Assembly: GCA_035274845.1 (NCBI GenBank)
Contig: DATENU010000022.1
Location: 248,001-312,000 of the forward strand
Reading direction: 5' to 3'
Length of the DNA stretch: 64,000 nucleotides
DNA from: Chthoniobacterales bacterium
Lineage (GTDB): Bacteria > Verrucomicrobiota > Verrucomicrobiia > Chthoniobacterales > UBA10450
Positions 22,546 through 63,544 of the stretch are shown here, piece after piece (position 1 is the stretch's first letter; each line of letters begins with the position of its first letter). The position numbers and the translations under genes are program-made. Below the pieces are notes generated by a model, which had not been told where the DNA came from, did not search any database, and saw only the letters and a program-made list of their open reading frames with translations.

Positions 22546-22610
22546 GCCTCTTTTCTACACGAAATCACGTAAGATTAAGCTTGGCTTATTGATGCCTGCC
22601 GCATAAAAGG
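22546..22610 (+). promoter_or_regulatory. Conserved promoter block, copy 1 of 3
   Basis: A CGAAATCACGTAAGATTA box (22560-22577) is followed by TTGGCT (22581-22586), a 16-nt spacer and ATAAAA (22603-22608), resembling -35/-10 elements. All three delta-60 genes have this block. Just upstream, 22546-22554 (GCCTCTTTT) matches only the right half of the terminators found at copies 2 and 3. Confidence 0.7.
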
Positions 22611-22626
22611 GGGCCAGAGGCACCCC

Positions 22627-22737
22627 ATGCCCTACCCGATTCCCCGACGATTGTTTCAGCGTCCGCTTCGCGCAGAAGTGAGACTGTCAGTGCTGCCCCC
22701 GGACGAACCCGGCACCGGCGCTCCGCCGTCTGCCTGA
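22627..22737 (+). CDS. Candidate leader peptide upstream of delta-60 protein A
   Basis: A 36-codon open frame (starts M-P-Y-P-I-P-R-R) in the transcribed leader between the conserved promoter and the first delta-60 gene. Its middle P-L-R-A-E-V-R-L-S-V-L-P is matched by P-L-R-G-E-V-R-L-T-V-L-P in the leader of the third paralog (29576-29701), with several differences at third codon positions. It ends 15 bp before the main start codon. It may be a translated regulatory leader or simply conserved untranslated sequence; the second paralog lacks it entirely. Confidence 0.3.
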   Translation: MPYPIPRRLFQRPLRAEVRLSVLPPDEPGTGAPPSA

Positions 22738-22752
22738 CTCACTACACCGCAT

Positions 22753-25700
22753 ATGAAATCAACAATCTCGCGAATTGCCGCCGTTAGTCTGTTGTTCGGG
22801 GCCCTGGCGACCGGCATCATGGCCTTCACCTTAACCAGGAACGCCATCGACTCACCGGGTCGCCCGCTCGTCCAGGAACCGTCCGGCACGATCGAGACAG
22901 ACGGCACCCTCGATTCGACCTTCAACGCAGGAAAATTCACCAACGGACTGGTGTTGGCCTCGGCCTTGCAGGCTGACGGCAAACTCTTCATCGCGGGCCA
23001 ATTTTCAGAGGTGCATGGCGTCGCCCGTCCCGGTATTGCTCGTCTGAATGTGGACGGGACACTCGACCTGTCGTTCAACCCTGCCCTCGGTCCCGAGACC
23101 GGCATCCCTGCTATCGCCCTCCAACCGGATGGGAAAATTATCATCGCCGGATCTTTCCCGACTGGAGTTAACCGCCAGGGGATTGCCCGGCTCAATAGCG
23201 ACGGGTCGCTCGACACCGGCTTCGATCCGGGGCGCACCCTCTCGTTCTCTGCCGACGATGGCGGCACTGGCAGCGGGGCCGGCGCGAACGTATTCGCGAT
23301 TGTCCTGCAGCCCGATGGGAAGTTGGTCGTTTTCGGTCAATTTTTCTTTATCATCACCGGACCGGGCACGAATGTCCCCCGTTCCTGCGTCGCCCGGTTC
23401 AATAGCGATGGAACGTTCGATCCCTCGTACAATCCGGGGAGCGGCGCGCTGCAAAGCGACGCGTCGTTCAACACAAACGTATCTCACGCCGCGCGGCAGA
23501 ACCTGGCTGCTAACGCTGGAAAGATCGTCATCTCGGGACGCTTCGATACGTTTGACGGGCATCCCGTTCCGGGCCTCGCCCGGATGAACGCCGACGGGAG
23601 TTTCGACTCCACCTTTACCCCGGGCACCGCGGTGGATGCCGGGACCGGTTCGATCTCAGGTCTTTTCGCGCAAGCGGACGATCAGATCCTTGCCTTTGGC
23701 TACTTCGACTCATTCAGCGGGGCCGCGCGCCATAGTATCGTGCGTTTGGACGCCACCACTGGAGCCGTCGATAACGGGTTTAGCACCGAGGAATTCGAGG
23801 GGTATAACTACGACGCTTTGATCGATGCCATGGCCCAGCAGCCAGATGGCAAGTTAATCGCGGTTGGAGAATTTCATTCGTTAGGCTCTGCGACCGTAAA
23901 CAATGTGGCCCGGCTCGAAACCAATGGCGCTCGCGATGCCACTTTCGGCGGGACCGGGGCCGGCCCCTCCGCCGAGCAGGTATACACGGCACTTGTCCGG
24001 CCAAGTGACGGCAAGATTTTTTTCGGGGGGTATTTTTCGACCTTCGGTGGCCAGGTCCGTAACAACATAGCCTGGGCTAATCCCGATGGGTCCGTGGACA
24101 CAAGCTTCGCCGGTCTGGGCGGAGCGACGGAGTATCAGCCCAATATCTGGACCCTCGCGACCCAGGCGGATGGCAAGGTTATCATGACCGGCGTTTTCAG
24201 CTCCCACGATGGAGTCCCGCACAACAATGTCCTCCGCGTAAATCCGGATGGCACGGTTGACTCGTCTTTCGACGTCCACACTGACCGGTCGACGCGCGCC
24301 CTGCTCATTCAACCGGATGGGAAAATTCTGATCGCTGGATTTTTTGGCGAAGTGAACGGCGTGCCCATGCCGCGAATTGCCCGGCTCAACCCCGATGGAA
24401 CCCTCGATCCCTCTTTCAATCCTGGGTCGGGACCGGACAGATATTACATTCGCGCACTGGCGCTGGATGCGGCGGGAAATATTTATGTCGGTGGAGAGTT
24501 CTCCGCGTTCAACGGAGCACCGCACACCGGCTTGGTGAAACTAACTCCGACGGGAGCGGTTGATAATGTTTTTAGTCCAGCTAATGCAGGGCCGTTTGAT
24601 CTTGTTAATTTGGTCACTTCGATGACCCCCCCAGACAGCAGCGGTCATATCGTCATCGGCGGAAGTTTCAGAACCTACAACGGAACGAATACTCGCGGGA
24701 TTGCTCGGTTCGATTCAACGACCGGCGCGATTGATTCCGCCTTTAACGCCGGCGGCGCGGGTTTCAATAGTGGCACTGTCTATGCCGTGCGCCAGGCTCC
24801 GGACGGAAAATATTACGTGGGCGGCTCCTTCAGCTCCTACAATGGCGTCGCGCGACGGGGGATCGCTCGCCTCAACAGCAATGGATCACTCGACACCACT
24901 TTTTCGGGGCCCTTCGTGTCGGGAGACACCGTGTATGCCCTCGCGCTCCAAAATGGAAAAGTCTACGCCGGCGGATCCAAGGCCCCGGGTTCTGCTGGTA
25001 TCTTTGTCCGCCTAACAGATACCGGGGCGGTGGATTCGAGTTTGGTTACTGGAACAGGGTTTGAGATTTCTCCCACGAATCTTTACCACGGATTCCCCAC
25101 GAAGATCTCCGCTTTGACCGTTCAGGCAGACGGCAAACTCCTCGTCGGAGGAATCTTTAATCGGTACAACGGCACCGCTCTCAGCTGCCTCGCCCGGCTG
25201 ACGGGCCCTGCCCTCCCCACGCCTACACCAGCGCCCAGTCCAGGCCGGGCCTTGAACCTATCGACGCGCATGCTGGTGCAGAGCGGCGACAACGTCGGCA
25301 TCGGCGGGTTCATCATAACGGGTGGTCCGAAGCAGGTGCTGCTCCGGGGCATCGGACCGTCGCTCGCGCAATTCGGTGTGCAAAATTTCCTGGCTGATCC
25401 CGTAATGGAACTCCACGGACCCGCCGGCTTTACGACGGTCACCAACGACAATTGGAGAGACAGTCAGGATGGTGGCCTGGCGATCATGGGTACTGGCCTC
25501 GCGCCCACCAATGACTTGGAATCAGGCATCCTGGCAACGCTAGATCCAGGCGCCTATACGGCCATCGTGAAAGGCAACAATAACACCTCCGGCGTGGGCC
25601 TGGTCGAAGTTTACGATCTGGGTTCGGCAGCCTCCCAACTGGCGAATATCAGCACGCGTGCCTTTGTCAGCACCGCGGATAACGTCATGATCGGCGGCTT

Positions 25701-25989
25701 CATCCTTGGTGGAGGCGGCAACAGCCACATCGCAATCTACGCAGTCGGGCCTTCGCTGGCAGGGAGTGGAGTTGGCGGGGCATTAGCCGACCCGACGCTC
25801 GAACTCCGTGACAGCAGCGGCGCCATTGTGGCTTCGAATGATAATTGCGGAAGCATTACCATCCACCCTCTCGACCCGGCCGAAGCCTGCATTGACATCT
25901 CGCTTCCACCCGGCGCTTTCACTGCCATCCTGGCTGGAAAGAACGGCGGCACCGGAGTCGGCCTCCTCGAAATATACAACCAGCAATAG
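22753..25989 (+). CDS. Giant secreted delta-60-repeat protein A with two C-terminal NISTR domains
   Basis: A 1,078-residue exported protein with a signal peptide at 1-25. Residues about 45-815 are tandem delta-60 repeats, each with the pattern A-L-Q-x-D-G-K-x-x-I-x-G-x-F followed about 30 residues later by R-x-N-x-D-G-(T/S)-x-D-x-x-F-x-P. This repeat is expected to build beta-propeller or solenoid structures in surface proteins. A short Pro/Thr linker (about 818-828) leads to two copies of the ~120-residue domain I call NISTR (from about 832 and 962). The second has a cysteine pair (N-D-N-C-G, A-E-A-C). It is the first of three tandem paralogs. Its propeller is closest to protein C and its tail closest to protein B, a mosaic. 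The ligand is unknown. Confidence 0.85.
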   Translation: MKSTISRIAAVSLLFGALATGIMAFTLTRNAIDSPGRPLVQEPSGTIETDGTLDSTFNAGKFTNGLVLASALQADGKLFIAGQFSEVHGVARPGIARLNVDGTLDLSFNPALGPETGIPAIALQPDGKIIIAGSFPTGVNRQGIARLNSDGSLDTGFDPGRTLSFSADDGGTGSGAGANVFAIVLQPDGKLVVFGQFFFIITGPGTNVPRSCVARFNSDGTFDPSYNPGSGALQSDASFNTNVSHAARQNLAANAGKIVISGRFDTFDGHPVPGLARMNADGSFDSTFTPGTAVDAGTGSISGLFAQADDQILAFGYFDSFSGAARHSIVRLDATTGAVDNGFSTEEFEGYNYDALIDAMAQQPDGKLIAVGEFHSLGSATVNNVARLETNGARDATFGGTGAGPSAEQVYTALVRPSDGKIFFGGYFSTFGGQVRNNIAWANPDGSVDTSFAGLGGATEYQPNIWTLATQADGKVIMTGVFSSHDGVPHNNVLRVNPDGTVDSSFDVHTDRSTRALLIQPDGKILIAGFFGEVNGVPMPRIARLNPDGTLDPSFNPGSGPDRYYIRALALDAAGNIYVGGEFSAFNGAPHTGLVKLTPTGAVDNVFSPANAGPFDLVNLVTSMTPPDSSGHIVIGGSFRTYNGTNTRGIARFDSTTGAIDSAFNAGGAGFNSGTVYAVRQAPDGKYYVGGSFSSYNGVARRGIARLNSNGSLDTTFSGPFVSGDTVYALALQNGKVYAGGSKAPGSAGIFVRLTDTGAVDSSLVTGTGFEISPTNLYHGFPTKISALTVQADGKLLVGGIFNRYNGTALSCLARLTGPALPTPTPAPSPGRALNLSTRMLVQSGDNVGIGGFIITGGPKQVLLRGIGPSLAQFGVQNFLADPVMELHGPAGFTTVTNDNWRDSQDGGLAIMGTGLAPTNDLESGILATLDPGAYTAIVKGNNNTSGVGLVEVYDLGSAASQLANISTRAFVSTADNVMIGGFILGGGGNSHIAIYAVGPSLAGSGVGGALADPTLELRDSSGAIVASNDNCGSITIHPLDPAEACIDISLPPGAFTAILAGKNGGTGVGLLEIYNQQ

Positions 25990-25994
25990 CCTGA

Positions 25995-26026
25995 AGAGGC
26001 GTGCGTTGGACCTGGCCTCTGTTTTC
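25995..26026 (+). terminator. Rho-independent terminator after delta-60 protein A
   Basis: Stem AGAGGC (25995-26000) / GCCTCT (26015-26020) followed by GTTTTCT. An equivalent hairpin follows the second paralog. Confidence 0.65.
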
Positions 26027-26029
26027 TAC

Positions 26030-26080
26030 GCGAAATCACGTAAGATTAGCGTTGGCTTATTAATGCCGCTCGCATAAAAG
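26030..26080 (+). promoter_or_regulatory. Conserved promoter block, copy 2 of 3
   Basis: Same CGAAATCACGTAAGATTA box, then TTGGCT (26052-26057), 16-nt spacer, ATAAAA (26074-26079). Only about 19 bp separate the -10-like element from the ATG at 26099, so the ~150-bp leader of the other two copies is missing here. Confidence 0.7.
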
Positions 26081-26098
26081 CAGTCCGGTGGCGCGCAC

Positions 26099-29000
26099 AT
26101 GAAATCTACAGTTTCGCGAATTGCCGCCGTTAGTCTGTTGTTCGCAGCCCTGGCCGCCGGCGTCATGGCTTTCACGTCGACCGGGAACGCCGTTGCCTCA
26201 CCGAGTGACTTCACCCAAAGACAATCCGGCGTGATCGAGCCGGACGGCACCCTCGATTCGTCCTTCAACCTGGACAGGTTTACCAACGGATTGGTATTGG
26301 CGTCGCGATTGCAGGCAGATGGAAAACTGGTTATTTCGGGACAATTCTCAGAGGTGCATGGCGCCAGCCGTCCCGGCATCGCGCGGCTGAATGTTGACGG
26401 CACTCTCGATACATCGTTCAACCCCGGCATTGGGACTGATTATGGGGTTGGCGATATCGTAATCCAGCCGGACGGCAAAATTATCATCGCCAAACTTGTT
26501 TATGATTATTCGGGAGGATCGGATTGGCCGGCATCGGTTAAGCGGCTCAACAGCGACGGTTCGCTCGATTCCGGCTTCGATCCGGGCCGCGTCATCTCGT
26601 TCTATGGAACCAATCCCGGCGGGAGAGTGTACGGCTTTGTTTTGCAACCGGATGGCAAGGTCGTCGTCTTCGGTCAGTTTTACTACATCATTACCGGACC
26701 CAATTCGAATGTGCCCCGCTCCTGCGTCGCTCGATTCAATAGTGATGGCACGTTCGATCCGACATATAATCCGGGCGCTGGCGTGGTTCACTACAAGGGC
26801 CCGTCCCACACTTTTGTCTTTCATGCGGTCCGTCAAAACCTGGGGGCCAACGCGGGAAAGATCATCATCTCGGGAATGTTCGACGGGGTTGATGGTCATT
26901 CCGTTCGTAACCTGGCCCGGTTGAATCCCGACGGCAGTTACGACACCACGTTTTATTCTAACTCGGGGACGGATGACATTCTCTCCGGGCTTTTTGTCCA
27001 ATCGGATGATCAAATTCTTGGTTTTGGACATTTCGAGTCATTCGACATTTTCTCGCGTCACAACATCGTGCGCTTGAATGCCGACAACGGGCACGTCGAT
27101 CCCGGATTTAGCACCGAAGAATTCCTGGACTATGACCATGGCGCGAAGGTTCTTGGGATGGCGCAACAGGCCGATGGCAAGTTAATCGCGGTCGGACAAT
27201 TTCATTCGTTAGGCGCGGCGACCGCGAACAATGTGGTCCGGCTTGAATCCAACGGCGCCCGGGATGCCAGTTTCAGCGGAACCGGTGCGGGCCCATCCAC
27301 CTGGAACATAGCCACGGCCCTCGTTCAGCCGGGGGACGGCAAGATTTTTCTCGGAGGCTATTTTTCGTCGTATGGTGGTCAGGTTCGGCAGAGCATCGCC
27401 TGGGCGAATTCTGATGGTTCCGTGGACAACGGCTTCGCAGGTCTCGGCGGCGCCACGGAATATGGTCCAAATATCTCGGCGCTGGCCCTCCAAACAGACG
27501 GCAAGGTGGTAGTAGCGGGATCCTTCACCTCCTATGACGGAACCTCCCACAATAATGTTCTGCGGATGAACCCCGACGGAACGCTCGATTCCTCTTTTGA
27601 CGCGCAGACCGACCGATCCACTAGGACGTTGCTCATCCAGCCGGATGGAAAGATCTTGATCTCCGGGGATTTTAGCGAAGTGAACGGTCTCCTCCGGCGT
27701 CGAATTGCCCGGCTTAACTCCGATGGAACGTTAGACCTTTCCTTTGACCCCGGCACCGGACCCGACCAATCCATTGGGGCCCTGGAGCAGGATTCCCAGG
27801 GAAACATCTACGCCGGTGGCGACTTCACCGTTTTTGACGGGAAACCCCGGCTCAGCATTGTAAAACTGAGTTCCACCGGAGAGGTAGATCCTCTGTTTAA
27901 TCCAGGTGGTGGCGGCGCCAACGGTCCACCGGGTGTCTGGGCGCTCACCCGGCCCGACAGCAGTGGTAACATTGTTATCGGCGGGAGCTTCACCACCTAC
28001 AATGGCGTCACCATGCATCGGATAGCGCGAGTGAACGCAATCACTGGCGCGCGCGATACTTCCTTTAACCTTGGGGGGCCCGGCTTTGCGGGGCCGGGCT
28101 TTGACGGACCTGTGTATGTCTTACGCCAGGGAGCGGATGGGTCATACTACGCTGGAGGAGGGTTCGGTACCTTCAATAGCACCGGTCGATCGCATCTCGC
28201 CCGGCTGTATAACTACGGCGCGCTCGATCCCTGGTTCGACCCGCCCCATTTCCTAACTACGGTGTATGCGCTTGCCCTCCAAAACGACTACGTTTACGTC
28301 GGCGGGGCGCGCGTATTGGGCTACTCCGGCCAGACCCAGGCGCTTGTCCGATTGATTGGCAGCTTCCCGGATGGAAGCTTCCACACCGGAACAGGGTTCG
28401 AGATTTTTCCTCTCCTCGCCTATGGGCAGCGTACTGCCATGGTTTCGAGCCTCGTCATTCAGCCGGATGGCAAACTTCTCGTTGGAGGAATCTTCAATCG
28501 GTATAACGGAACCGCTCGCAGCTGCCTGGCTCGCTTAACAGCGACGGTTACTCCGACGCCGACACCGACACCCGCTCCGAGCCCGACCTCAACGCCCGCT
28601 CCGAGCCCAAGCCCGACTCCAGCTGGAACTCCATCGCCTACACCTTCGCCCACTTCCACGGTTTCTCCCACCCCCACGGCCACACCTGCCCCAACCCCAA
28701 CTGCTACCCCATCGCCCAGTCAAGGTCGGGCGTTGAACATAGCGACGCGCCTGCTCGTCCAGACCGGCGACAACGTCGGCATCGGCGGGTTCATCATTAC
28801 GGGCGGTCCGAAGCAGGTGCTCGTCCGGGGCATTGGACCGTCGCTGGCGCAATTCGGTGTGCAAAATTTCCTGGCTGATCCCGTAATGGAACTCCACGGA
28901 CCCGCCGGCTTTACGACGGTCACCAACGACAATTGGAGAGACAGTCAGGATGGTGGCCTGGCGATCATAGCCACTGGCCTTCAGCCGACCAATGATATCG

Positions 29001-29470
29001 AGTCCGCGATGCTGGCGACGCTGAATCCAGGCGCCTATACGGCCATCTTGAAAGGCAACAATAACACCTCGGGCGTGGGCCTGGTCGAAGTTTACGACCT
29101 GGGTTCGGGGGCCTCCCAACTGGGCAATATCAGCACGCGTGCCTTTGTCGGCACAGGAGATAACGTCGTGATCGGCGGATTCATTCTCGGAGGAGGCGGC
29201 AACAGCCACATCGCAATCTACGGAGTCGGGCCTTCGCTGGCAGGGAGTGGAGTTGGCGGGGCATTAGCCGACCCGACGCTCGAACTCCGTGACAGCAGCG
29301 GCGCCATTGTGGCTTCGAATGATAATTGCGGGGGCAGTACCATCCACCCTCTCGACCCGGCCGAAGCCTGCATCGACATCTCGCTTCCACCCGGCGCTTT
29401 CACTGCCATTCTGGCGGGAAAGAACGGCGGCACCGGAGTCGGCCTCCTCGAAATATACAGCTATCAATAG
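26099..29470 (+). CDS. Giant secreted delta-60-repeat protein B with two C-terminal NISTR domains
   Basis: A 1,123-residue exported paralog of proteins A and C, with the same signal peptide type ([11 protein letters not shown]). Its delta-60 repeat region (about 45-815) is the most divergent of the three. The Pro/Thr/Ser linker (about 815-876) is expanded to about 60 residues of T-P-T-P and A-P-S-P units, against about ten in A. The two NISTR domains (from about 878 and 1007) are almost identical to those of protein A, including a DNA tract of roughly 120 bp without differences (about 28850-28968 against 25370-25488). That suggests recent gene conversion or recombination at the 3' ends. Probably a cell-surface or secreted binding protein; function unknown. 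Confidence 0.85.
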
Positions 29471-29475
29471 CCTGA

Positions 29476-29505
29476 AGAGGCGTGCGTCGGACCCAGCCTC
29501 TTTCT
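29476..29505 (+). terminator. Rho-independent terminator after delta-60 protein B
   Basis: Stem AGAGGC (29476-29481) / GCCTCT (29496-29501) followed by TTCT, homologous to the hairpin after protein A. Confidence 0.6.
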
Positions 29506-29507
29506 GC

Positions 29508-29558
29508 GCGAAATCACGTAAGATTAGGCTTGGCTTATTGATGCCTCTCGCATAAAAG
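29508..29558 (+). promoter_or_regulatory. Conserved promoter block, copy 3 of 3
   Basis: CGAAATCACGTAAGATTA box, TTGGCT (29530-29535), 16-nt spacer, ATAAAA (29552-29557), followed by a ~140-bp leader homologous to that of copy 1. Confidence 0.7.
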
Positions 29559-29575
29559 GAGGCCGGCGGCTCCCC

Positions 29576-29701
29576 ATGCCCCTCCTGATTTCCAGATTTT
29601 CTCAGAGTCCACTTCGCGGAGAAGTGAGACTCACAGTTCTGCCCCGGGACCCATCCGGCTTCGGCCTTCGCCGTTTGCCTAACCCAACACTCCTCATATG
29701 A
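29576..29701 (+). CDS. Candidate leader peptide whose stop overlaps the start of protein C
   Basis: A 41-codon open frame (starts M-P-L-L-I-S-R-F) in the leader of the third delta-60 gene. Its TGA (29699-29701) overlaps the ATG of the main gene (29698-29700), the classical ATGA arrangement of translational coupling. The core P-L-R-G-E-V-R-L-T-V-L-P matches the leader frame of the first paralog. No clear Shine-Dalgarno is visible, so translation is unproven. Confidence 0.35.
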   Translation: MPLLISRFSQSPLRGEVRLTVLPRDPSGFGLRRLPNPTLLI

Positions 29702-32700
29702 ACTTAACAACCTCGCGAATCGCCGCTGTTAGCCTGTTGTTCGGAGCCCTGGCGATCAGCGTCATGGCTTTCACTTCCACCAAGAGCGCTATCGGCTCAC
29801 CAGGACGCCCGATCACCCAGCAACCGTCCGGCATGATCGAGACAGACGGCACTCTCGATACGACCTTCAATGCAGGAAAATTCACGGACGGGCTGGTGTT
29901 CCACTCGGCCCTGCAGCCTGACGGCAAGGTTATCATCACCGGATCATTCTCAGAGGTGCACGGCGTCAGCCGTTCCGGCATCGCTCGGCTGAATGGGGAC
30001 GGCACGCTCGACCTGTCGTTCGACCCCGGCCTTGGTGCCAGTTTTGGCCCTGGTGACATCGTCCTTCAGCCGGATGGCAAAATTATCATCACCGGGTTTT
30101 TCCAAACTGTTAGTGGGATTGACCGCAAGGGGATTGCCCGGCTCAATAGCGACGGTTCGCTCGACTCTGGCTTCGATCCTGGTTCCGTACTCTCGTTCGA
30201 CGGAACCTCCGCAGCCAACACTTCGATATATGGTGCTGTCCTTCAACCAGATGGCAAGATGGTCGTTTTCGGCCAGTTTTTCTTTGTCCTAACGGGACCG
30301 GGCACGAACGTGCCGCGCTCCTGTATCGCGCGGTTCAATAGCGATGGGACGTTCGATCCATCGTACAATCCGGGCACGGGCGCTGGGAACAGCGCTGGCA
30401 CATTCAGCACCATTGTGTATCACGCCGCGCGCCAAAACCTGGCGGCCAACGCGGGAAAGGTTGTCATCGCCGGAACTTTCGAAACGTTTGATGGTCATCC
30501 CGTTCCGGGCCTCGCCCGGATGAACGCCGACGGCAGTTTCGACGCCACCTTTACCCCGGGTTCGGCGGTGGATGCCGGGACCGGTACGATCTCAGGTCTT
30601 TTAGCGCAAGTGGACGACCAGATCCTTGCCTTTGGCTACTTCGACTCATTTAGCGGCGTCGCGCGCCATAGTATCGTGCGTTTGAGTGCCAGCACCGGAG
30701 TCGTCGATAGCGGATTTAGCACGGAAGAGTTTGAGGGGTATAACTACGACTCGATAATTTATAGCATGGCGCAGCAGCCCGATGGCAAGTTAATCGCGAC
30801 CGGAGAATTTCATTCGTTAGGTGCCGCCACCGTCAACAACGTGGCCCGGCTCGAAACCAATGGCGCTCGCGATACCAGCTTCAGCGGGACCGGAGCCGGT
30901 CCCTCCGCCTGGCAAATAAACACGGCGCTCGTTCGGCCGAGTGACGGCAAGATCTTTCTCGCTGGTTATTTTTCGAGCTTCGGCGGCCAGACCCGGAACA
31001 ACATAGCCTGGGCCAATCCCGATGGCTCCGTGGACAGCAGCTTCGCCGGACTGGGGGGAGTGGCGGAATACGATCCGAATATCTGGACCACGGCCACCCA
31101 GGCGGATGGCAAGATTATTATGACCGGCGTTTTCACCTCCCACGATGGCGTCCCGCACAACAACGTTCTCCGGGTAAACCCGGATGGCACAGTTGACTCG
31201 TCTTTCGACGTCCACACCGACCGGTCGACGCGCGCGTTGCTCATTCAACCGGATGGGAAGATTCTGATTGCGGGATTTTTTGGGGAAGTGAACGGCGTGC
31301 CCATGCCGCGAATTGCCCGGCTCAACTCCGATGGGTCCCTCGATCCCTCGTTCGATCCGGGAACCGGACCGGATAGATATTACATTCGCGCGCTGGCGCT
31401 GGATGCGGCGGGAAATATTTATGTCGGTGGAGAGTTCTCCTCGTTCAACGGCATACCGCACACCGGCGTGGTAAAACTAACGCCGACGGGGGCGGTTGAT
31501 AATGTTTTTAATCCAGCTAATGCAGGCCCCTTTGACCTTGTTTTTTTGGTCAGTGCGATGACCCCGCCGGACAGTAGCGGTCATATCGTCATCGGCGGAA
31601 GTTTCAGAAACTATAATGGAACGAATATTCGCGGGGTTGCACGGTTCGATACAACGACTGGCGCGATTGATTCCGCCTTTAACGCCGGCGGCGTGGGTGT
31701 CACCGGGAATTCTGCTACCGTCTTTGCCGTGCGCCAGGCTCCGGACGGAAAATATTACGTGGGCGGCTCCTTCAGCTCCTACAATGGCGTCACCCGACGG
31801 GCTCTTGCTCGCCTCAAGAGCGATGGGTCGCTCGACACCACTTTTTCGGGACCCCTTGTGTCCGGAGACACTGTCTACTCCCTCGCGGTCCAAAATGGAA
31901 AGGTCTACGTAGGCGGATCGAATTCCTCCGGTCCTGGTATTTTTGTCCGCTTAACCGATACCGGGGCGGTGGATTCGAGTTTGGTTACTGGAACTGGGTT
32001 CGCGATTTCTCCCCAGGGTCATTACCCCGGCTCCCCCGCGAAGATCTCGGCCCTGAACCTTCAGCCAGATGGCAAGCTTCTCGTCGGAGGAATCTTCAAT
32101 CAGTACAACGGAACCTCTCGAATCTGTCTCGCCCGCTTGACTGGCCCCGCCATCGTTCCCACGCCAACGCCGACGCCGACTCCCGCCACTCTTCTCGGCA
32201 ACATCTCGACACGAGGGTTCGTGGGAACGGGCGACAATGTCATGATCGCCGGCTTCATCATTACCGGAAACGCCGGCAAGCGGGTCACCGTGCGGGGCAT
32301 TGGACCGTCCCTGAGCGCCTTCGGCGTTTCCAATCCATTGGCTGACCCTGTTCTCGAACTACACGGCCCGGCCGGATTTGGAACAGTCATAAACGACAAT
32401 TGGCGAGACAGTCAAACTCAGTGCCTGGAAACAGCGGAACTGAGGCCCACGAACGATCTGGAGGCGGCGATCTGTGGTGCGACCTTGAGTCCGGGCGCTT
32501 ATACGGCGATCCTAAGGGGCAAAAACAATGGCGGCGGTGTGGGCCTGGTAGAAGTCTATGACGTCTCTCCGGCATCGGACTCCAGGCTGGCTAACGTTTC
32601 CACCCGCGGGTTCGTGCTGCCGGGTGAGAACGTCTTGATTGCGGGAACAATTCTGTCAGGCCAGGGGACGCAGCAACTGCTGGTGCGAGGACTAGGCCCA

Positions 32701-32988
32701 TCCTTGGGCCTCCCAGCTACCCTGGGGGACCCACTTATCCGGTTGTACGATGCGAATGGCGCCCTGATTCGCGAAAACAATAACTGGCGGGACGATCAGG
32801 AAGCTGCCATCGCCGCCACCGGTCTGGCACCCACGAATGATGGGGAGTCGGCAATCCTCGAAACATTGCCTGCCAATGGCGCTGCCTACACAGTGATCTT
32901 GACTCCGGGGAACCCGATTTTGCCAGGCCCGCCTCCGCCTCCTTTTGTGGGCGGTGTGGCGCTAGTGGAGATTTACAGATTGCCCTGA
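29698..32988 (+). CDS. Giant secreted delta-60-repeat protein C with two C-terminal NISTR domains
   Basis: A 1,096-residue exported paralog. Its delta-60 region (about 45-815) closely follows protein A, including long shared stretches such as [14 protein letters not shown] and R-Q-A-P-D-G-K-Y-Y-V-G-G-S-F. Its C-terminal part is clearly different from both A and B: a short T-P-T-P linker and two more divergent NISTR domains (from about 833 and 962), the last interrupted by a Pro-rich insertion just before the terminal V-A-L-V-E-I-Y. The first NISTR copy holds a cysteine pair (T-Q-C, A-I-C). The repeat region would be expected to fold as a beta-propeller or solenoid outside the cell; partner unknown. 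Confidence 0.85.
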   Translation: MNLTTSRIAAVSLLFGALAISVMAFTSTKSAIGSPGRPITQQPSGMIETDGTLDTTFNAGKFTDGLVFHSALQPDGKVIITGSFSEVHGVSRSGIARLNGDGTLDLSFDPGLGASFGPGDIVLQPDGKIIITGFFQTVSGIDRKGIARLNSDGSLDSGFDPGSVLSFDGTSAANTSIYGAVLQPDGKMVVFGQFFFVLTGPGTNVPRSCIARFNSDGTFDPSYNPGTGAGNSAGTFSTIVYHAARQNLAANAGKVVIAGTFETFDGHPVPGLARMNADGSFDATFTPGSAVDAGTGTISGLLAQVDDQILAFGYFDSFSGVARHSIVRLSASTGVVDSGFSTEEFEGYNYDSIIYSMAQQPDGKLIATGEFHSLGAATVNNVARLETNGARDTSFSGTGAGPSAWQINTALVRPSDGKIFLAGYFSSFGGQTRNNIAWANPDGSVDSSFAGLGGVAEYDPNIWTTATQADGKIIMTGVFTSHDGVPHNNVLRVNPDGTVDSSFDVHTDRSTRALLIQPDGKILIAGFFGEVNGVPMPRIARLNSDGSLDPSFDPGTGPDRYYIRALALDAAGNIYVGGEFSSFNGIPHTGVVKLTPTGAVDNVFNPANAGPFDLVFLVSAMTPPDSSGHIVIGGSFRNYNGTNIRGVARFDTTTGAIDSAFNAGGVGVTGNSATVFAVRQAPDGKYYVGGSFSSYNGVTRRALARLKSDGSLDTTFSGPLVSGDTVYSLAVQNGKVYVGGSNSSGPGIFVRLTDTGAVDSSLVTGTGFAISPQGHYPGSPAKISALNLQPDGKLLVGGIFNQYNGTSRICLARLTGPAIVPTPTPTPTPATLLGNISTRGFVGTGDNVMIAGFIITGNAGKRVTVRGIGPSLSAFGVSNPLADPVLELHGPAGFGTVINDNWRDSQTQCLETAELRPTNDLEAAICGATLSPGAYTAILRGKNNGGGVGLVEVYDVSPASDSRLANVSTRGFVLPGENVLIAGTILSGQGTQQLLVRGLGPSLGLPATLGDPLIRLYDANGALIRENNNWRDDQEAAIAATGLAPTNDGESAILETLPANGAAYTVILTPGNPILPGPPPPPFVGGVALVEIYRLP

Positions 32989-33122: not shown

Positions 33123-34673
33123 TTAATTCAATCGATAAACTTCCACCAGCGCATTGCCGAGGCCGCCGTTCTTGCCGCGGACAATCGCCGTCGTGCTGCC
33201 GGGCGGCCGCGCAATCAGAATCGCGGATTCGGCGTTGTCACTGGGAGCGAAGCCGCTCGCGGTAATGGCGGTTTCATTTGTGTCCCGCCAATTATCATTC
33301 TCAACGATCTGGGCGCCATTCGCGTCATACAAAGTCAGGATGGGATCTTGCAGCGCGTTCGGCACTCCAAACTTGGCCAGCGACGGACCGATCGCGCGCA
33401 CGATCACGCTGACGTTGTCGTTGCTCGGGTGCCCCGCGATAAAGCCGCCAATCATGACATTGCTTCCGGTTTCGACAAATCCGCGTGTGCTGATATTCGC
33501 CAGCTTCGAGTTCGAGACAGAGGAGAGATCGTAAACTTCGACGACGGCTATTCCGGTCGTATCGTTCTTTCCGCGGACGGCCGCCGTGTATGAGCCTGGC
33601 GCGAGGGTGCGCAGGATGGCGGATTCGGTGCTGTAAATCGGCTGCAGGCCGGTGGCGCGAATCGCGTCGCCCTGCGAATCAAACCAATCGTCGTTGGCCT
33701 GCAATTGACTGTCGCCTTGGAAAAGAGTGAGCGTCGGATTCTGCAGCGCATTGGCTACGCCGAAGTCTGCGAGGGAAGGTCCAATCCCTCGAATCACCAC
33801 CGTCTTGGGCTCGGTCCCAGTAATGATGAAACCGCTGATCAGGACGGAGTCGCCGGTCTGGACCCGGAGCCGCGTGGAGATGTTCAAGAGCTTACCCGGC
33901 GGCGCCGCGTAGCCGAGAGTCCGGAGATAAGCGCGGTCATCGTCGTTTACGTTCACGCGATACGGAAAATGAATGCCGATCAGGTGCGTGAAATCGTCGG
34001 CGTGATTGATCGGATAATTTGGCCCGGTGCCGGTTGCATCGAAGTAGGCGTTGGGATCGTGGATATTGGCCGAGCCATTGATCGTGCCGCCCGGATTCAC
34101 CAGGGGGCGCCCCGCGGAATCGAACAGGAACGTATCATGCCGCGTCACCTGTGAAGCTCCGGGATTCGCCGGATCGATTCCCGACACCGCCCCGAGAATA
34201 TGGAGTATCTCGTGGCGCGTCAGTCCTTTCAGGTTGGCGATGAAGTCGAGATAATTGACGACGCCGTCGCCGTTCTGATCGGAGTAGAGCGACAGGTTAA
34301 AGCTGTATTCGATCGAGCCATCCGCCGCGCTGCCGTTCACGTCGGAGCCGGTCCGGATCTTGATGTAAGTGTTGCCGTCCCGAAAGCCGCCCGGCTGCAG
34401 GACCTGGAGCGCCGTAGTCGCGCCCGCCGCGTAGGCCGTCGTCATCGACGAGGTGATCGTCAGTTGAATCGTGGCGGTCTCGGCAAATTCCCGGCCGACC
34501 TCGTCGAGCGCCGCCTGCAACGTCGATCGGGCCACGGCGCCATTGGCGGGGTCGTCCCAGTTCTGGTTTGTGTGGCTGGTTACATCGGGAAAGCTGAGGG
34601 CGAACGTTACCTCGGCGCGGGAAGACGCCGCGAGCGTAACGAGGATCGCCAGCGCGATACTGAATCGGAGCAC
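33123..34673 (-). CDS. Secreted HExxH (metalloprotease-like) protein with two NISTR domains
   Basis: A 516-residue exported protein (signal peptide 1-20, GTG start). The N-terminal domain (about 21-255) contains an EF-hand-like calcium loop (D-Q-N-G-D-G-V-V-N-Y-L-D-F) immediately before R-H-E-I-L-H-I-L-G (about 152-160), an H-E-x-x-H zinc-binding motif. A downstream region has further histidines (N-H-A-D-D-F-T-H-L-I-G-I-H). Together these suggest a metzincin-like secreted zinc protease, but the full ligand set cannot be confirmed by eye. Residues from about 263 and 389 are two NISTR domains like those of the neighbouring delta-60 proteins. It is convergent with protein C and separated by a palindrome. 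Confidence 0.75.
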   Translation of the reverse strand: MLRFSIALAILVTLAASSRAEVTFALSFPDVTSHTNQNWDDPANGAVARSTLQAALDEVGREFAETATIQLTITSSMTTAYAAGATTALQVLQPGGFRDGNTYIKIRTGSDVNGSAADGSIEYSFNLSLYSDQNGDGVVNYLDFIANLKGLTRHEILHILGAVSGIDPANPGASQVTRHDTFLFDSAGRPLVNPGGTINGSANIHDPNAYFDATGTGPNYPINHADDFTHLIGIHFPYRVNVNDDDRAYLRTLGYAAPPGKLLNISTRLRVQTGDSVLISGFIITGTEPKTVVIRGIGPSLADFGVANALQNPTLTLFQGDSQLQANDDWFDSQGDAIRATGLQPIYSTESAILRTLAPGSYTAAVRGKNDTTGIAVVEVYDLSSVSNSKLANISTRGFVETGSNVMIGGFIAGHPSNDNVSVIVRAIGPSLAKFGVPNALQDPILTLYDANGAQIVENDNWRDTNETAITASGFAPSDNAESAILIARPPGSTTAIVRGKNGGLGNALVEVYRLN

Positions 34674-34999
34674 GCGGAGTAGTCGCCACGCGTTTCTACG
34701 CGGTCAAGGAGAAAACTTATTCGACGCAATTGATGCGCGCCTTCAGCGCTTCGTCATTTTCTCAATCAATTTCCTGGGGCGATGCCCCAGGCTTGAATTG
34801 AGGGCGCGCCGTTGGCGCTAATGCCGCTACTATTTTCTTCAGCGCCAAAGGCGCGACAGTCAGGTAAGCCTGGGGCAACGCCCCAGGTTTCGGCCAACAA
34901 AAAAAATCGCGCTGAAAGCGCAATTCACGCTCACCTGAGCGCTCTGCCACGCTTGGGTGTCGGAGACAAAAATGGGATCCGGCGGCGTTAAAAGCTTCG
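34674..34999. other. 326-bp intergenic region with hairpin cluster
   Basis: No coding sequence supported. It separates divergent genes and holds the hairpin cluster at 34773-34887. The remaining flanks must carry the promoters of the HExxH protein and the retropepsin-like protein; I see no clear consensus. Confidence 0.6.
34773..34887. repeat. Intergenic hairpin cluster, CCTGGGGC family
   Basis: CCTGGGGC-GAT-GCCCCAGG (34773-34791), GCGCGCCGTTGGCGCT (34804-34819), AGCGCCAAAGGCGCG (34841-34855) and CCTGGGGC-AAC-GCCCCAGG (34869-34887). The order is itself mirror-symmetric. The same components are at 20224-20320. Confidence 0.85.
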
Positions 35000-55028: not shown

Positions 55029-58016
55029 TCATGGATCCAGGTCGTAAACCTCCACCAGGCCGACGCCCGCGGCGCCGTTCGCGTCTCTAATAATTGCGGT
55101 GTAGGCGCCGGCTGGAAGGTTTGTCACAATCGCCGCTTCGAGATTCTGCGAAGGAGAAAGCCCGGTCTGGATAATTTCCTCCTCCTGTTCGGAGCGCCAA
55201 CTGTCATTCGACGCGAGCACCGCACCGTTACTGTCGTGCAGCTCGAGAAAAGGATCCGGTAACGCATTGTTGATTCCGAAGGCCTGCAGGGAGGGCCCAA
55301 GGGCACGGACGATCACTCGTCCGGAAGGTTGGCGGATAATGAAGCCGCCTATCATCACCTGCTCGCCGGTCTGAACCAGGCCGCGCGTGCTGATGTTCGC
55401 GAGCCGGGCGACCGAGCCATAATTCAAATCGTAAACTTCTGCGACAGCGATGCCGGAGCTGGAGGCAAGACCGCGGATCAGGGCGGTATAGCTGCGATTG
55501 GGTTGAAGGGTGACGATCATGGCCGACTCGCGATCGTCAGTGGGAGCGACGCCAAGCGCCTGAAGCTCAGCAGTCTGGTTTGCCGGAATAAGGTCTCCGA
55601 GCTGGGTGATTCTCCAATCATTGTTGGCCGCGAGCAGTGCGCCGCTGCTGTCATACAAGCCGAGCGTGGGGTCGTTCAGACTCGTGGTGATGCCGGACGC
55701 GCTCAACGATGGGCCAATGGCACGAAGCAAAACCCGGGTCGGCCCGTTACCGGTAATGATGAATCCGACAATTACAGCATTGTCGCCGGTTCCAACCCAC
55801 GCCCTCGTCGAGATGTTGGCCAGACCGCCGGCAACCGATTCGAGTTGGAAGGCAAAATCGAGGTCGTACGGTTCCCAGGGGCCGTTGACGGGATCGCTAA
55901 TGCTGCGCGCAGCGCCAACCAGACCATGATCGTGAGATGGCTCCCAGGCCCAAACCGGCACGGGATTGGTGATCGAAAGCCAGTATCGAACGCCCGCCTT
56001 GGCCAGGAACGGGGTCCGCAGGTCTGCCACCTGTTCGAACTCCGGTGCGTTACCTGAATCAAATGCCGTCCGCGTCTTACTGATCGGCCCAAGATCCAAC
56101 GTCCGGATCAATGCGCCGGGATGGCCGTCGGCATCCGCAAACAATCGCAACGTGAAGGTGTCCGGGACCGGAGCCGGACCGAAATACCCGCTCCACCATC
56201 GGATCCGCGTGACGGTCGTATCTTCACTTAACTGAAAGTCGTCGGCGACCGTGATTCGCACCCCATCCGAGAGGGCGCCAACGGAGTGCGCGGGATTTTG
56301 AGCATAAACGTTCAGGACGGGTCGCGGGGTGGGTGTGGGTGCCGGCGTTGGAGTCGGCGTAGGCGGTGGGGTGGAGCTTCCTCGCCAAACCCAGACCGCG
56401 TCGATCAGTGATTCGGACGAGCCAGAGTTGACGTTTGTGACTCGAAGCGGATAGAGAGCGTAGGTTGCAAACGGGATGGGAACGTTATCCGCCCTGATGG
56501 TTATGGAAGTCGCTGTCAAGTCGGTAACCGTCTGCTCCCGGTCTCCGATGAAGGCGCGCATTCCTTTTAGGAAACCCCTGCCCGTGACAGTGAAGTCTAC
56601 GACCTGGTCGGTGTATGCGTAGACCGGGTTTCCGATCGGGTCGAAGGCCGGCTCCGGTGCATACCGCGACATGTGCTGATTACCGCCCATGAAGCCCGGA
56701 TTACGCGCCAGATAAGGATTGTAGGTCGTCGGCAAATCCCAGACGTGAATTACCGACTCCCCGAGCGCGAAAAACTCATTCAGTCCGTCCCCGTCGATGT
56801 CCGCGACGATCGGCCCAGAGTAAAAGCCGAAATTGCCGGGGACTTGGAAAGGAAAGCCAAGTTCACTGATCGGCGTGCCGTCGTAGTTCCAGGCGTAAAC
56901 ATTGCGCTGACCATCGGTCGCGAGAAGGTCCACCTTGGAATCCGCATTCAAGTCCGCGAGAGCGACGGAGTGGACCCTGATGGGGAAAATCTTCGGCCAC
57001 CCAGGAAAGTTCGTGCCGTCGGATCGCAGGACATAGACTCCGCCACCAAGCGTTCCAAAAACTATTTCGAGTTTGCCGTCGTTGTCCAAGTCGGCAAAGG
57101 CGGGTGGATACGGGTGATCGCTGACTGTCTTGGGCCAGCCCGGGAGTAAATTTCCAGCTGGGTCGTAAACCCCCACCCGATTGTCGTACGTGGTGACGAC
57201 CAATTCAAATCCCCCGTCGCCGTTGACATCCGCGAACGAAACCGAATTGGAAATGTAACTGTCGCTCAAGGTTACGGGCCAACCCGGAAACACGACCCCG
57301 TTATCATGAAAGAGAAAGATTTTACTATGGTGAGTCACAACCGCGAGATCCAGCCGCCCGTCGCCATCGACGTCAGCCACCGCGGGAGATCCATCATAGA
57401 TATCCTCGCCCGCTACTGGCAGGGTCACAGGCCAACCGGACAAAGGCGTTCCGTCGATGCGATCGACGTGAATGACCGCCGTGCCGGTTCCATTAGCCGC
57501 TGTGCTTGAGACGTAAATCACCTCCGGCTTCCCGTCGTTGTCGACGTCGGCCAGCACCAATGGAAACTGATGAGGCACCCAGGGATTTCCTGTAACGATT
57601 GTCTTCGGCCAACCCGGAAGAGGCGTCGCGTCACCGCGCCAGAGCGAGACCTGCCCCTGCCCGACATTAAAGTCGTAGGAAAGCATGCCGACGATCGGAG
57701 CCCCGTCGAGTTCGGCGACGGAGGGAGGGCCCGCCGGTGACTCGTACATGGCGGCCGGCCAGCCGTTGACAAAGGTGCCGTCTTCGTGCCGCGCACTGAC
57801 GCCGAAGCGTCGGCCCCAAAGAATCTCGAGTTTGCCATCGCCGTCGAGATCGGCGGCTACCGGTGTCTCCGCATTAACCGAAATAGGCGAGGACGGCCAG
57901 CCGGGATGGGCAGGCGGAGCAGCTACAAGGGCGACACCGGCGCCGTTCAGCAAAACGAGCGTCGCTATGAGGCTGCAGCACAATCCAAATCCAAATAACC
58001 GGGGAGGAGGAGACAT
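55029..58016 (-). CDS. Secreted FG-GAP/VCBS-repeat protein with two NISTR domains
   Basis: A 995-residue exported protein (signal peptide 1-33). Residues about 50-440 hold repeated A-D-x-D-x-D-G-x-x-E-I/D-L units (for example V-A-D-L-D-G-D-G-K-L-E-I-L and V-A-D-V-D-G-D-G-R-L-D-L-A), the calcium-binding FG-GAP/VCBS pattern of integrin-like beta-propellers, each followed by a P-G-W-P motif. A T-P-T-P linker (about 550-572), a domain of unknown type (about 575-725) and two NISTR domains (from about 730 and 870) follow. ATG 58016 is preferred over a TTG at 58037 because it opens directly into the signal peptide. The surface ligand is unknown. Confidence 0.82.
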   Translation of the reverse strand: MSPPPRLFGFGLCCSLIATLVLLNGAGVALVAAPPAHPGWPSSPISVNAETPVAADLDGDGKLEILWGRRFGVSARHEDGTFVNGWPAAMYESPAGPPSVAELDGAPIVGMLSYDFNVGQGQVSLWRGDATPLPGWPKTIVTGNPWVPHQFPLVLADVDNDGKPEVIYVSSTAANGTGTAVIHVDRIDGTPLSGWPVTLPVAGEDIYDGSPAVADVDGDGRLDLAVVTHHSKIFLFHDNGVVFPGWPVTLSDSYISNSVSFADVNGDGGFELVVTTYDNRVGVYDPAGNLLPGWPKTVSDHPYPPAFADLDNDGKLEIVFGTLGGGVYVLRSDGTNFPGWPKIFPIRVHSVALADLNADSKVDLLATDGQRNVYAWNYDGTPISELGFPFQVPGNFGFYSGPIVADIDGDGLNEFFALGESVIHVWDLPTTYNPYLARNPGFMGGNQHMSRYAPEPAFDPIGNPVYAYTDQVVDFTVTGRGFLKGMRAFIGDREQTVTDLTATSITIRADNVPIPFATYALYPLRVTNVNSGSSESLIDAVWVWRGSSTPPPTPTPTPAPTPTPRPVLNVYAQNPAHSVGALSDGVRITVADDFQLSEDTTVTRIRWWSGYFGPAPVPDTFTLRLFADADGHPGALIRTLDLGPISKTRTAFDSGNAPEFEQVADLRTPFLAKAGVRYWLSITNPVPVWAWEPSHDHGLVGAARSISDPVNGPWEPYDLDFAFQLESVAGGLANISTRAWVGTGDNAVIVGFIITGNGPTRVLLRAIGPSLSASGITTSLNDPTLGLYDSSGALLAANNDWRITQLGDLIPANQTAELQALGVAPTDDRESAMIVTLQPNRSYTALIRGLASSSGIAVAEVYDLNYGSVARLANISTRGLVQTGEQVMIGGFIIRQPSGRVIVRALGPSLQAFGINNALPDPFLELHDSNGAVLASNDSWRSEQEEEIIQTGLSPSQNLEAAIVTNLPAGAYTAIIRDANGAAGVGLVEVYDLDP

Positions 58017-58094
58017 CGGGCGCTGATTTTCACCCAAGAAAGTTTTTCAGTAAAGCCGCTAATTAATACGGCTGGGACGCTACCGCCGGCCATT

Positions 58095-58185
58095 CAGTAA
58101 TGGCCCGGTATTGACGAGGGCCACGTGGGTGAAGGCCTGGGAGAAATTACCGAGCTGGCGTTTGGCGCGCGGGATCGTATTCCTC
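58095..58185 (-). pseudogene. Remnant of a GH15 glucoamylase-like gene (C-terminal end)
   Basis: Closely resembles 63630-63710, the C-terminal coding part of the GH15-like gene, in the same orientation: the segment translating E-E-Y-D-P ... R-Q-L-x-N-F-x-Q-A-F-T-H-V-A-L-V-N-T, with roughly 80% nucleotide match by eye. One inserted G in GCGCGCGGGATCG breaks the frame. Only the 3' end remains; it stops at GTATTCCTC, where the CorC fragment begins. Confidence 0.75.
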
Positions 58186-58187
58186 GT

Positions 58188-58263
58188 CCATGCGGCGCAT
58201 TGTTCCCGCCAACGAAGCCGAGCCGGCCTATCGAATCATCAAGCGCCTCGTGCAAAGCGTCTA
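58188..58263 (+). pseudogene. Remnant of a CNNM/CorC-type gene (C-terminal CBS end)
   Basis: Translates M-R-R-I-V-P-A-N-E-A-E-P-A-Y-R-I-I-K-R-L then V-Q-S-V-stop. The functional CorC paralog at 54807-54866 reads M-R-R-I-V-T-A-R-D-A-E-P-A-Y-R-I-I-Q-R-L (48 of 60 bases identical by my count). Directly joined to the GH15 fragment at about 58186. Confidence 0.7.
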
Positions 58264-58341
58264 ACGGTTTCGACCAGTGGGACCGCTGCCTTCCGTAGGA
58301 AAAACCTTGCCCTCGGGCGTGGAATCACGATAGCCTGCGGC

Positions 58342-60915: not shown

Positions 60916-60924
60916 TCGGCTTCG

Positions 60925-63525: not shown

Positions 63526-63544
63526 GGGTCGAGTATCCCGCTCT

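Follow-up and report, generated by a model that had tools for sequence, protein, structure and literature searches.

Three adjoining genes of a soil bacterium, here termed A, B and C, lie in the window (the whole 64,000-nucleotide stretch of DNA that was analysed), and their large, probably exported products are a patchwork of parts (Table 1). The bodies of all three belong to the delta-60/DUF5122 family, as their repeats exceed the curated cut-offs for both PF17164 (446.6, 386.6 and 460.7 bits in A, B and C, over 13, 12 and 12 stretches; cut-off 27) and TIGR02608 (312, 266 and 313 bits; cut-off 76.5). An AlphaFold2 model of the A body, built from five sequences, had a pLDDT of 73.5 and a pTM of 0.59, and its top Foldseek match was the periplasmic sensor domain of BT4663 (4a2l; E 1.5e-17), at a TM score of only 0.3; a propeller template is listed in the literature on DUF5122. 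We regard A, B and C as tandem delta-60 (propeller-like) proteins that are probably exported. A literature search for the delta-60 repeat in Verrucomicrobia returned nothing, and the array was absent at the kinase locus in all seven relatives from the genus that were inspected.

Table 1. Genes, domains and mosaic features of the A/B/C array, in positions of the window.
Feature	Position	Strand	Description
Gene A	22753-25989	+	1078 aa; signal-like N-terminus, delta-60 (DUF5122) body, short Pro/Thr linker, two-domain tail; mosaic
Gene B	26099-29470	+	1123 aa; architecture of gene A with a longer linker; tail common to A and B
Gene C	29698-32988	+	1096 aa; body common to A and C; tail from another lineage
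A body	22882-25197	+	DUF5122/TIGR02608 repeats; propeller-like model of moderate confidence; C-like
A linker	25198-25254	+	Pro/Thr/Ser-rich; contains the main switch point (25245/25246)
A tail	25255-25986	+	Two beta-sandwich domains (profile matches at about 25255-25620 and 25645-25980); B-like
B tail	28736-29467	+	Partner of the A tail at 92.6% DNA identity, the tightest pair among 113 complete tails
C tail	32200-32985	+	Domain family of the A/B tail, other lineage; nearest of the other 112 complete tails at 59% DNA identity
Neighbouring ORF	33123-34673	-	Same two-domain tail at the C-terminus; metalloprotease-like NF038122 match below cut-off
Conserved upstream element of A	22561-22590	+	Counterparts upstream of B and C; 0 in 100 shuffles
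Conserved upstream element of B	26032-26061	+	Sits in the 3′ flank of A
Conserved upstream element of C	29510-29539	+	Sits in the 3′ flank of B
Second, weaker mosaic boundary in the A/C body	23548	+	Chi-square 46.5; reached by 0/1000 permutations
Exact A=B run, 122 bp	25366-25487 (A), 28847-28968 (B)	+	P 0.0012 for such a length at the overall tail identity
Exact A=B run, 108 bp	25743-25850 (A), 29224-29331 (B)	+	For the two runs, P 0.0012 and 0/20000
Shared block, A copy	25215-26092	+	Linker, tail, stop codon and 3′ flank; ends just before the B start codon
Shared block, B copy	28696-29570	+	91.1% identical to the A copy over 878 columns

Gene A is a mosaic, in which a C-like body is joined to a B-like tail at one sharp switch in the linker. 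In windows of 180 nt, identity across the body is 70-92% between A and C and 49-79% between A and B, and over the tail domains it is 87-97% between A and B and 40-66% between A and C; the uniform identity of all pairs that the first-pass annotation had named as evidence against its own proposal was therefore not seen. When the comparison was restricted to informative columns (positions where A matches B alone or C alone), the main split reached a maximum chi-square of 466.3, the highest value among 1000 permutations being 21.4, with 151 A=B and 542 A=C columns to its left and 287 and 12 to its right. The earlier statement that the body of A follows C is correct in direction but not uniformly so, as there is a break near 23548 and identity to C over the first 800 bp of A is merely 70-84%; a 14-residue stretch cited as an example of this sharing is a weak one, since B differs from it at a single residue. 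The near-identity of the last two domains of A and B was borne out, as was the divergence of the C tail. So was a difference-free A-B stretch of about 120 bp, in fact an exact run of 122 bp, for which the positions first given (25370-25488 against 28850-28968) are one base off in register. The block shared by A and B passes the stop codon, taking in about 100 bp of 3′ flank, and has a sharp 5′ edge and a 3′ edge that falls at an indel preceding the B start codon.

The second outcome named as contrary evidence, an assembly that mis-joined repeats (here the near-identical tails), is very improbable. Several contigs break off within tails, and their ends overlap exactly by 94, 104 and at least 141 bp, a range that includes the 122-bp A-B run; judged by its length, that run could have been mis-joined. 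However, the longest exact within-array repeat at 25090-25365 is 33 bp, and none of 20 bp or more lies across the switch, so that a mis-join at the 122-bp run could not create a switch at 25245. The A and B tails moreover differ at 57 of 741 positions, and a like pattern was found in another assembly (G003). Since several contigs end in tails, the latest exchanges may be under-counted.

Silent sites point to a real exchange between A and B. Between A and B, the three main segments of the body have a dS of 0.9-1.8, and the short N-terminal segment and the last-blade segment 0.38 and 0.43, as against 0.13-0.22 in the tail, so that silent divergence is lower inside the tract than outside it, as gene conversion entails; between A and C, on the other hand, dS is 0.30-0.59 over the three main segments, and the tail has a value of about 2 or is saturated. 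In the tail tree, forcing A and C together lowers the log-likelihood by 70 units (p-AU 0.028). Along with the sharp breakpoint and the reversal at silent sites, this tree supports the proposal made at first reading, namely recombination that switched at the T-P-T-P linker. The body tree, built with a distant outgroup (L012/L025), gives no firm support for rooting A with C (p-AU 0.284 for A+B and 0.101 for B+C). It might be argued that there was no exchange and that the tail is merely under stronger selection than the body, and pN is indeed lower in the tail than in the body in 10 of 13 alignable adjacent pairs; yet the signal is in silent sites, where the A-C tails are saturated or nearly so and the A-B tails are not, and constraint alone cannot invert the order of divergence, which leaves this explanation with hardly any probability.

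The tail itself is a tandem pair of beta-sandwich domains of about 121 residues, with 125 matches in the genome. The inventory comprises 236 domains in 120 ORFs, a few of them truncated at contig ends; 116 of these ORFs have two domains, and in 116 the last domain lies no more than 7 residues from the protein end. The bodies that carry the tail are diverse. Across eight genomes of the genus there are 62-130 tail matches per genome, and the tail is present in 21 of the 387 genomes of the phylum sample. A model of the tail (pLDDT 85.4) found its best Foldseek match in the tandem collagen-binding pair of ColG (5iku; E 3e-6, TM 0.33), and VIA-align placed ColG, TkSP and collagenase PPC chains at Z 5-7.5, a range rated as middling by the tool and in which an unlike protein, LipL32, shares the top Z with the PPC-type chains. 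The predicted fold is nearest to pre-peptidase C-terminal (PPC) domains, at these middling scores; PPC and clostridial collagen-binding domains are likewise beta-sandwiches of about 100-120 residues.

Profile searches did not assign the tail domains to any Pfam family. Matches to PF04151 (PPC) were weak and found in 5 of 32 tails (best E 0.066) and not in A, falling short of family membership. NF038127 (DVUA0089) matched 27 of the 32 tails at E up to 1 (best 2.1e-13), and its cut-off of 29 bits is passed by the ORF at 33123-34673 (36.1 bits); there was no match in the tail of A itself and none in whole A, B or C at E up to 0.01. When the tail profile was compared with PDB sequences, 14 matches were obtained at E≤10 (best 4.7e-6), which were chiefly to short stretches of designed or Kelch/WD40 propellers and were judged to be due to chance. 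The A tail was unmatched at E 1e-5 in plasmid and phage collections, and the titles and opening lines of abstracts on chimeric paralogs and related topics do not name the tail.

The tail was also compared with known C-terminal sorting signals. TIGR04183, which describes the type IX secretion C-terminal domain, gave one G000 match, below the cut-off and away from the tails; in a control this profile rang in 2 of 14 genomes, 1 of them above the cut-off, and by this test the tail is not a domain of that type. A search for SprA of the same secretion system was silent in its controls as well and is therefore uninformative. In 116 of the 120 tail ORFs, which end 0-7 residues past the last beta-sandwich, a transmembrane PEP-CTERM sorting signal at the extreme C-terminus would have no room. 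Exosortase is not an obvious partner either: PF09721 occurs in 17 of 18 genomes chosen for having the tail and in 10 of 10 chosen genomes with no tail match.

The A/B/C array is one instance of a genome-wide pattern. Both here and in G003, adjoining genes often have similar tails on bodies that are diverged or cannot be aligned. The median tail DNA identity is 0.734 for adjacent same-strand pairs (n = 36) versus 0.565 for all others (n = 6288). Among adjacent pairs with alignable bodies, picked irrespective of tail identity, 10 of 13 here and 9 of 11 in G003 have a smaller silent difference in the tail than in the body. The opposite trend, with tails differing more than bodies, was seen in 3 of 13 and 2 of 11, and three of these five cases are significant, namely B/C, one C9 pair of this genome and one C22 pair of G003. 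A tail brought in from a third source could give rise to such pairs, whereas simple homogenisation of tails would not. Of the adjacent pairs with no or only a short body match, 10 of 23 here and 7 of 19 in G003 have a tail pS below 0.60, the value at the 1st percentile among unlinked pairs, and the other 13 and 12, respectively, do not fall below that percentile; constraint on silent sites might reduce tail pS somewhat. The clearest case is G003 C15, where the tails have a pS of 0.18 and a pN of 0.00, the bodies are unmatched by blastp, and yet DNA similarity extends to 488 nt ahead of the tail. Of 34 adjacent pairs selected at a tail identity of at least 0.72, 25 have similar DNA that starts no more than 200 nt from the tail, although BLAST edges also vary with the rate of body divergence. 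The suggestion made in the first-pass annotation, that heads and tails are shuffled, is better described as one kind of tail shared by different bodies.

We infer, with a probability of about 80%, that the tail of A and B was made common by homologous recombination between neighbours, that like events were repeated elsewhere, and that the tail is generic. The bodies of A and C would have diverged first, and recombination between A and B would have followed, leaving one common A/B tail; the 5′ edge of the exchange would lie in the Pro/Thr linker and its 3′ edge right before the B start codon, and the simplest history would be a replacement from B to A. More generally, the conserved tail and the low-complexity linker would provide shared homology through which neighbours swap tails or gain new bodies, and such swaps would be tolerated because the tail is generic and not specific to one body.

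Within this recombination between neighbours, the exchange may have taken the form of unequal crossing-over and deletion, a route that we consider possible but below even odds. The B unit would have been duplicated in tandem, and a deletion would then have fused the A body to the extra B tail at the linkers. Such a route fits a shared block that spans the 3′ flank of A up to the B start codon, as in a tandem copy, and is compatible with a 3′ edge at the indel; upstream elements are repeated before A, B and C, and low-complexity linkers are natural sites for such events. A single event between B and C, however, would put the chimera between these two genes, and the actual order, A (the chimera), B, C, means that an extra duplication plus a deletion is needed; the patchy exact A-B runs, too, are better matched by small conversion tracts. 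It is also conceivable, if unlikely, that C was the gene that changed: an ancestor of A and C would have had a tail of the A/B type, a foreign tail would have entered C, and A and B would have been homogenised separately. Among the 113 complete tails, none is close to that of C (59% DNA identity at best), and a tail more diverged than its body is known elsewhere, in the C9 pair. This history nonetheless requires two events and still needs an A-B tail exchange after the A/C split, as the tail dS of 0.13-0.22 is smaller than the A-C body dS of 0.30-0.59.

It seems most likely that the tail serves as a module for secretion, surface retention or matrix binding that is generic across bodies. A more speculative idea, to which we give rather less than even odds, is that it is a dedicated C-terminal tag for export or surface attachment, read by unseen machinery, which doubles as a recombination adaptor: the common homologous ends of the cargo genes, often behind a low-complexity linker, would keep neighbours trading the bodies that precede their tails, and the tag would in this way drive the invention of new exported proteins.

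Recombination among tandem paralogs is already known. In the gingipain/HagA genes of Porphyromonas gingivalis, modules are reported to be rearranged combinatorially, with repeats that broke short-read assemblies; what varies there, in a comparison between strains, is adhesin modules belonging to a few genes (PMC5266723). Here, by contrast, one C-terminal module is found on more than 100 proteins of one genome, and paralogs are compared. Polymorphic toxins are likewise modular, and recombination between conserved and variable parts is reported to diversify them, but there the C-terminal domain is the one that varies (PMC3482391), whereas here the C-terminal part is constant in kind and the N-terminal body varies. 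The delta-60/DUF5122 family (TIGR02608, PF17164) covers the repeats only, and neither the tail nor the mosaicism. In this case the exchanged unit can be identified, as an uncharacterised tail on more than 100 proteins of one Verrucomicrobiota genome, and exchanges recur at its border and can be ordered in time by silent sites. The resulting body-tail fusions form a natural series in which it can be asked whether new exported proteins arise faster when a generic C-terminal module is present, and the tail may lead to a secretion or attachment system yet to be found. The genome-wide tail module, the 3′ flank within the shared block and the further adjacent pairs of the same kind are additions to what the first-pass annotation had described.

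Codon-aligned windows across the tandem genes A, B and C bore out the first-pass annotation's view of A as a C-like body joined to a B-like tail, since A follows C in the body and B in the tail. Among the 992 columns at which A matches just one of B and C, the best split lies at 25245/25246: to its left, 542 columns pair A with C and 151 pair A with B; to its right, the counts are 12 and 287 (chi-square 466.3 vs a maximum of 21.4 in 1000 permutations). The switch indeed falls in the Pro/Thr linker as proposed, with the start of A's linker C-like and its end, from GRAL onward, B-like; a second, weaker break at 23548 splits the A/C body.

Between A and B, silent-site divergence (dS) drops from 0.92, 1.22 and 1.81 across three segments of the body to 0.22 and 0.13 across the two domains of the tail. 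The A-C comparison runs the other way: 0.59, 0.41 and 0.30 for those body segments, and 1.96 and saturated for the tail domains. This pattern implies that the A and B tails became alike after A and C had separated. Two short segments, one N-terminal and one covering the last blade, gave A-B values of 0.38 and 0.43, and A-C values of 0.32 and 0.17, respectively. In a tree of 113 tails, A and B were joined with an SH-aLRT of 100, and forcing A with C cost 70.2 log-likelihood units (p-AU 0.028); a body tree with a distant outgroup did not decisively place the root. The bodies of all three proteins are delta-60/DUF5122 repeats, scoring over curated cut-offs, and their tails matched no Pfam family above its cut-off.

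Features of the A/B/C array and of contig ends in the same genome (L-numbers, stretches of that genome)
Feature	Location	Remark
Gene A	22753-25989	
Gene B	26099-29470	
Gene C	29698-32988	
Upstream element common to A, B and C	22561, 26032, 29510	Found before all three genes
Contig ends within tail domains	L109 end/L081 start, L061 start/L087 start, L088, L103, L104	94 to at least 141 bp in common

The DNA block shared by A and B (25215-26092 vs 28696-29570, 91.1%) extends through the stop codon into roughly 100 bp of flank, ending right before the B start codon; its 3' end lies at an indel, the 3' flanks measuring 109 vs 227 bp. Between A and C, similarity spans the upstream flank along with the body (22546-25616 vs 29496-32561, 80.8%). 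The exact 17-mer of the upstream element, possibly a shared promoter, was absent outside the array among 124 fetched loci. A and B differ at 57 of the 741 tail sites, and two identical runs of 122 bp (P 0.0012) and 108 bp (0/20000) lie amid these differences, suggesting more than one exchange.

The window is positions 248001-312000 of contig C22. The tail module seems to break up the assembly of this genome (4.54 Mb in 24 contigs): the end of contig C1 and start of C14 have at least 141 bp in common, as do the starts of C22 and C3, while C12 overlaps C1 and C14 by 94 bp, and C5 and C6 overlap by 104 bp. The 122-bp run lies within this range, and its length alone thus gives no clearance from assembly error. 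A mis-join requires a repeat, however, and around the switch (25090-25365) exact repeats within the array reach only 33 bp (25284-25316), with none of at least 20 bp crossing 25245; this argues against the mis-join that had been named as a refuter, and the 57 tail differences count against a collapsed assembly. Exchanges so recent that their copies are still identical may have interrupted contigs and escaped notice. One tail-gene stretch (L095) carries a 566-bp direct repeat (70-635 and 548-1111, 97% identity) whose copies overlap.

The recombination reading is supported, and homologous recombination between adjacent paralogs explains the mosaic best, with tail and linker as the putative common homology. 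We infer that the shortest history is replacement from B to A. Duplication of B followed by deletion would also yield the chimera, whereas a single unequal crossing-over between B and C should place it between those genes, which is not the order seen. Orthologs cannot polarise the exchange, because the genus relatives covered lack the array at this locus; either this genome acquired it or the others lost it. Two congeners, G006 and G007, retain both flanking genes in the stretch covered: matches to the kinase gene on A's left and to the aspartyl-protease-like gene at 35000 are separated by 133 and 215 bp, and neither A, B, C nor any tail occurs there; none of seven kinase-region stretches from the genus held a tail. 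With 13 candidates scored per genome, 1 of 57 relatives matched A at E 1e-100 (44% over part). No relative's body match within the genus exceeded 44% over part. A palindromic, intergenic REP-like element (CCTGGGGC...GCCCCAGG) occupies 34700-34930 of the window, next to the protease-like gene that bears a tail, and G006 has similar DNA near the kinase (L121 555-783).

A and B have the closest pair of tails among 113 complete ones (0.926). Median tail identity was 0.734 for 36 same-strand adjacent pairs vs 0.565 for 6288 other pairs. Bodies were alignable in 13 of the 36, and silent difference (pS) was lower in the tail than in the body in 10 of these (of the 13, z was above 2 in seven and below -2 in two, B/C and one C9 pair); of the other 23, tail pS was below 0.60, the 1st percentile for unlinked tails (median 0.70), in 10 and not in 13. 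A trio on contig C9 (105552/108203/110037) mirrors A/B/C, its middle gene combining the third's body with the first's tail. A congener, G003, repeats this result in 19 stretches picked because their tails cluster, which hold 56 complete tails out of 130 matches in that genome: among 30 adjacent pairs, the tail was lower in 9 of 11 alignable ones (of the 11, z was above 2 in five and below -2 in one), and tail pS was below 0.60 in 7 of 19 others. One of these seven, with bodies not alignable by blastp, has a tail pS of 0.18 and a nonsilent difference of 0.00, the similar DNA beginning 488 nt upstream of the tail. When only adjacent pairs whose tails are at least 0.72 identical are considered, the similar DNA starts no more than 200 nt from the tail in 25 of 34 cases (16/19 in the window's genome, 9/15 in G003). 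G003 also has a long one-strand run of tail genes (L125-L127, C2:2397-50629), in which several neighbours have similar tails and non-aligning bodies. The window holds three further adjacent tail genes of alternating orientation (55029-63891). These supply two of the genome's four adjacent opposite-strand pairs, all with unlike tails (0.54-0.61), as would follow if only directly oriented genes exchange, although four pairs are few.

These data move the focus away from a local oddity and onto a C-terminal module that is exchangeable and occurs genome-wide. A profile started from the window's own tails, searched against the window and 74 stretches chosen for matching, found 236 domains, each some 121 residues long, spread over 120 ORFs, with two domains in 116 and one in four (two of them cut by contig ends). 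The inter-domain gap is 8-10 residues in 114 of the 116, and the last domain ends 0-7 residues from the ORF end in 116 of 120, the tail being internal in four. In one exception, L041 (C11:87058-89877), the two-domain tail lies near the N-terminus, before a putatively DUF1800-like second half of about 650 residues. Whole-genome searches gave 125 matches here and 62-130 across eight genomes of the genus (G003 with 150 of 185 candidates scored). The tail is present in 20 of 286 genomes of a class sample and in 21 of 387 of a phylum sample, under four family codes. Seven matches were scored per genome, and 18 of the phylum sample's 21 had at least that many. Of 15 public loci found by sequence, 13 were titled Verrucomicrobiota (Verrucomicrobia, Chthoniobacterales, Spartobacteria), one Acidobacteriaceae and one Mucilaginibacter.

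Bodies that carry the tail include delta-60 and FG-GAP repeats and one ORF with weak resemblance to proteases; others have no assignment. At least 15 of the 30 residues preceding the tail are Pro, Thr or Ser in 56 of 113, and a crude signal-peptide rule picked out 70 of 113 tail ORFs vs 30 of 99 others, some ORFs being cut by stretch ends. The tail's role is putative; if it is a generic part, the persistence of swapped genes would be accounted for. Assignment as a type IX domain was rejected by the test applied, and a PEP-CTERM signal was rejected because the last domain leaves no room after it. The tail is predicted to form two beta-sandwiches (pLDDT 85.4, pTM 0.75), the nearest folds, with middling scores, being collagen-binding and PPC domains.
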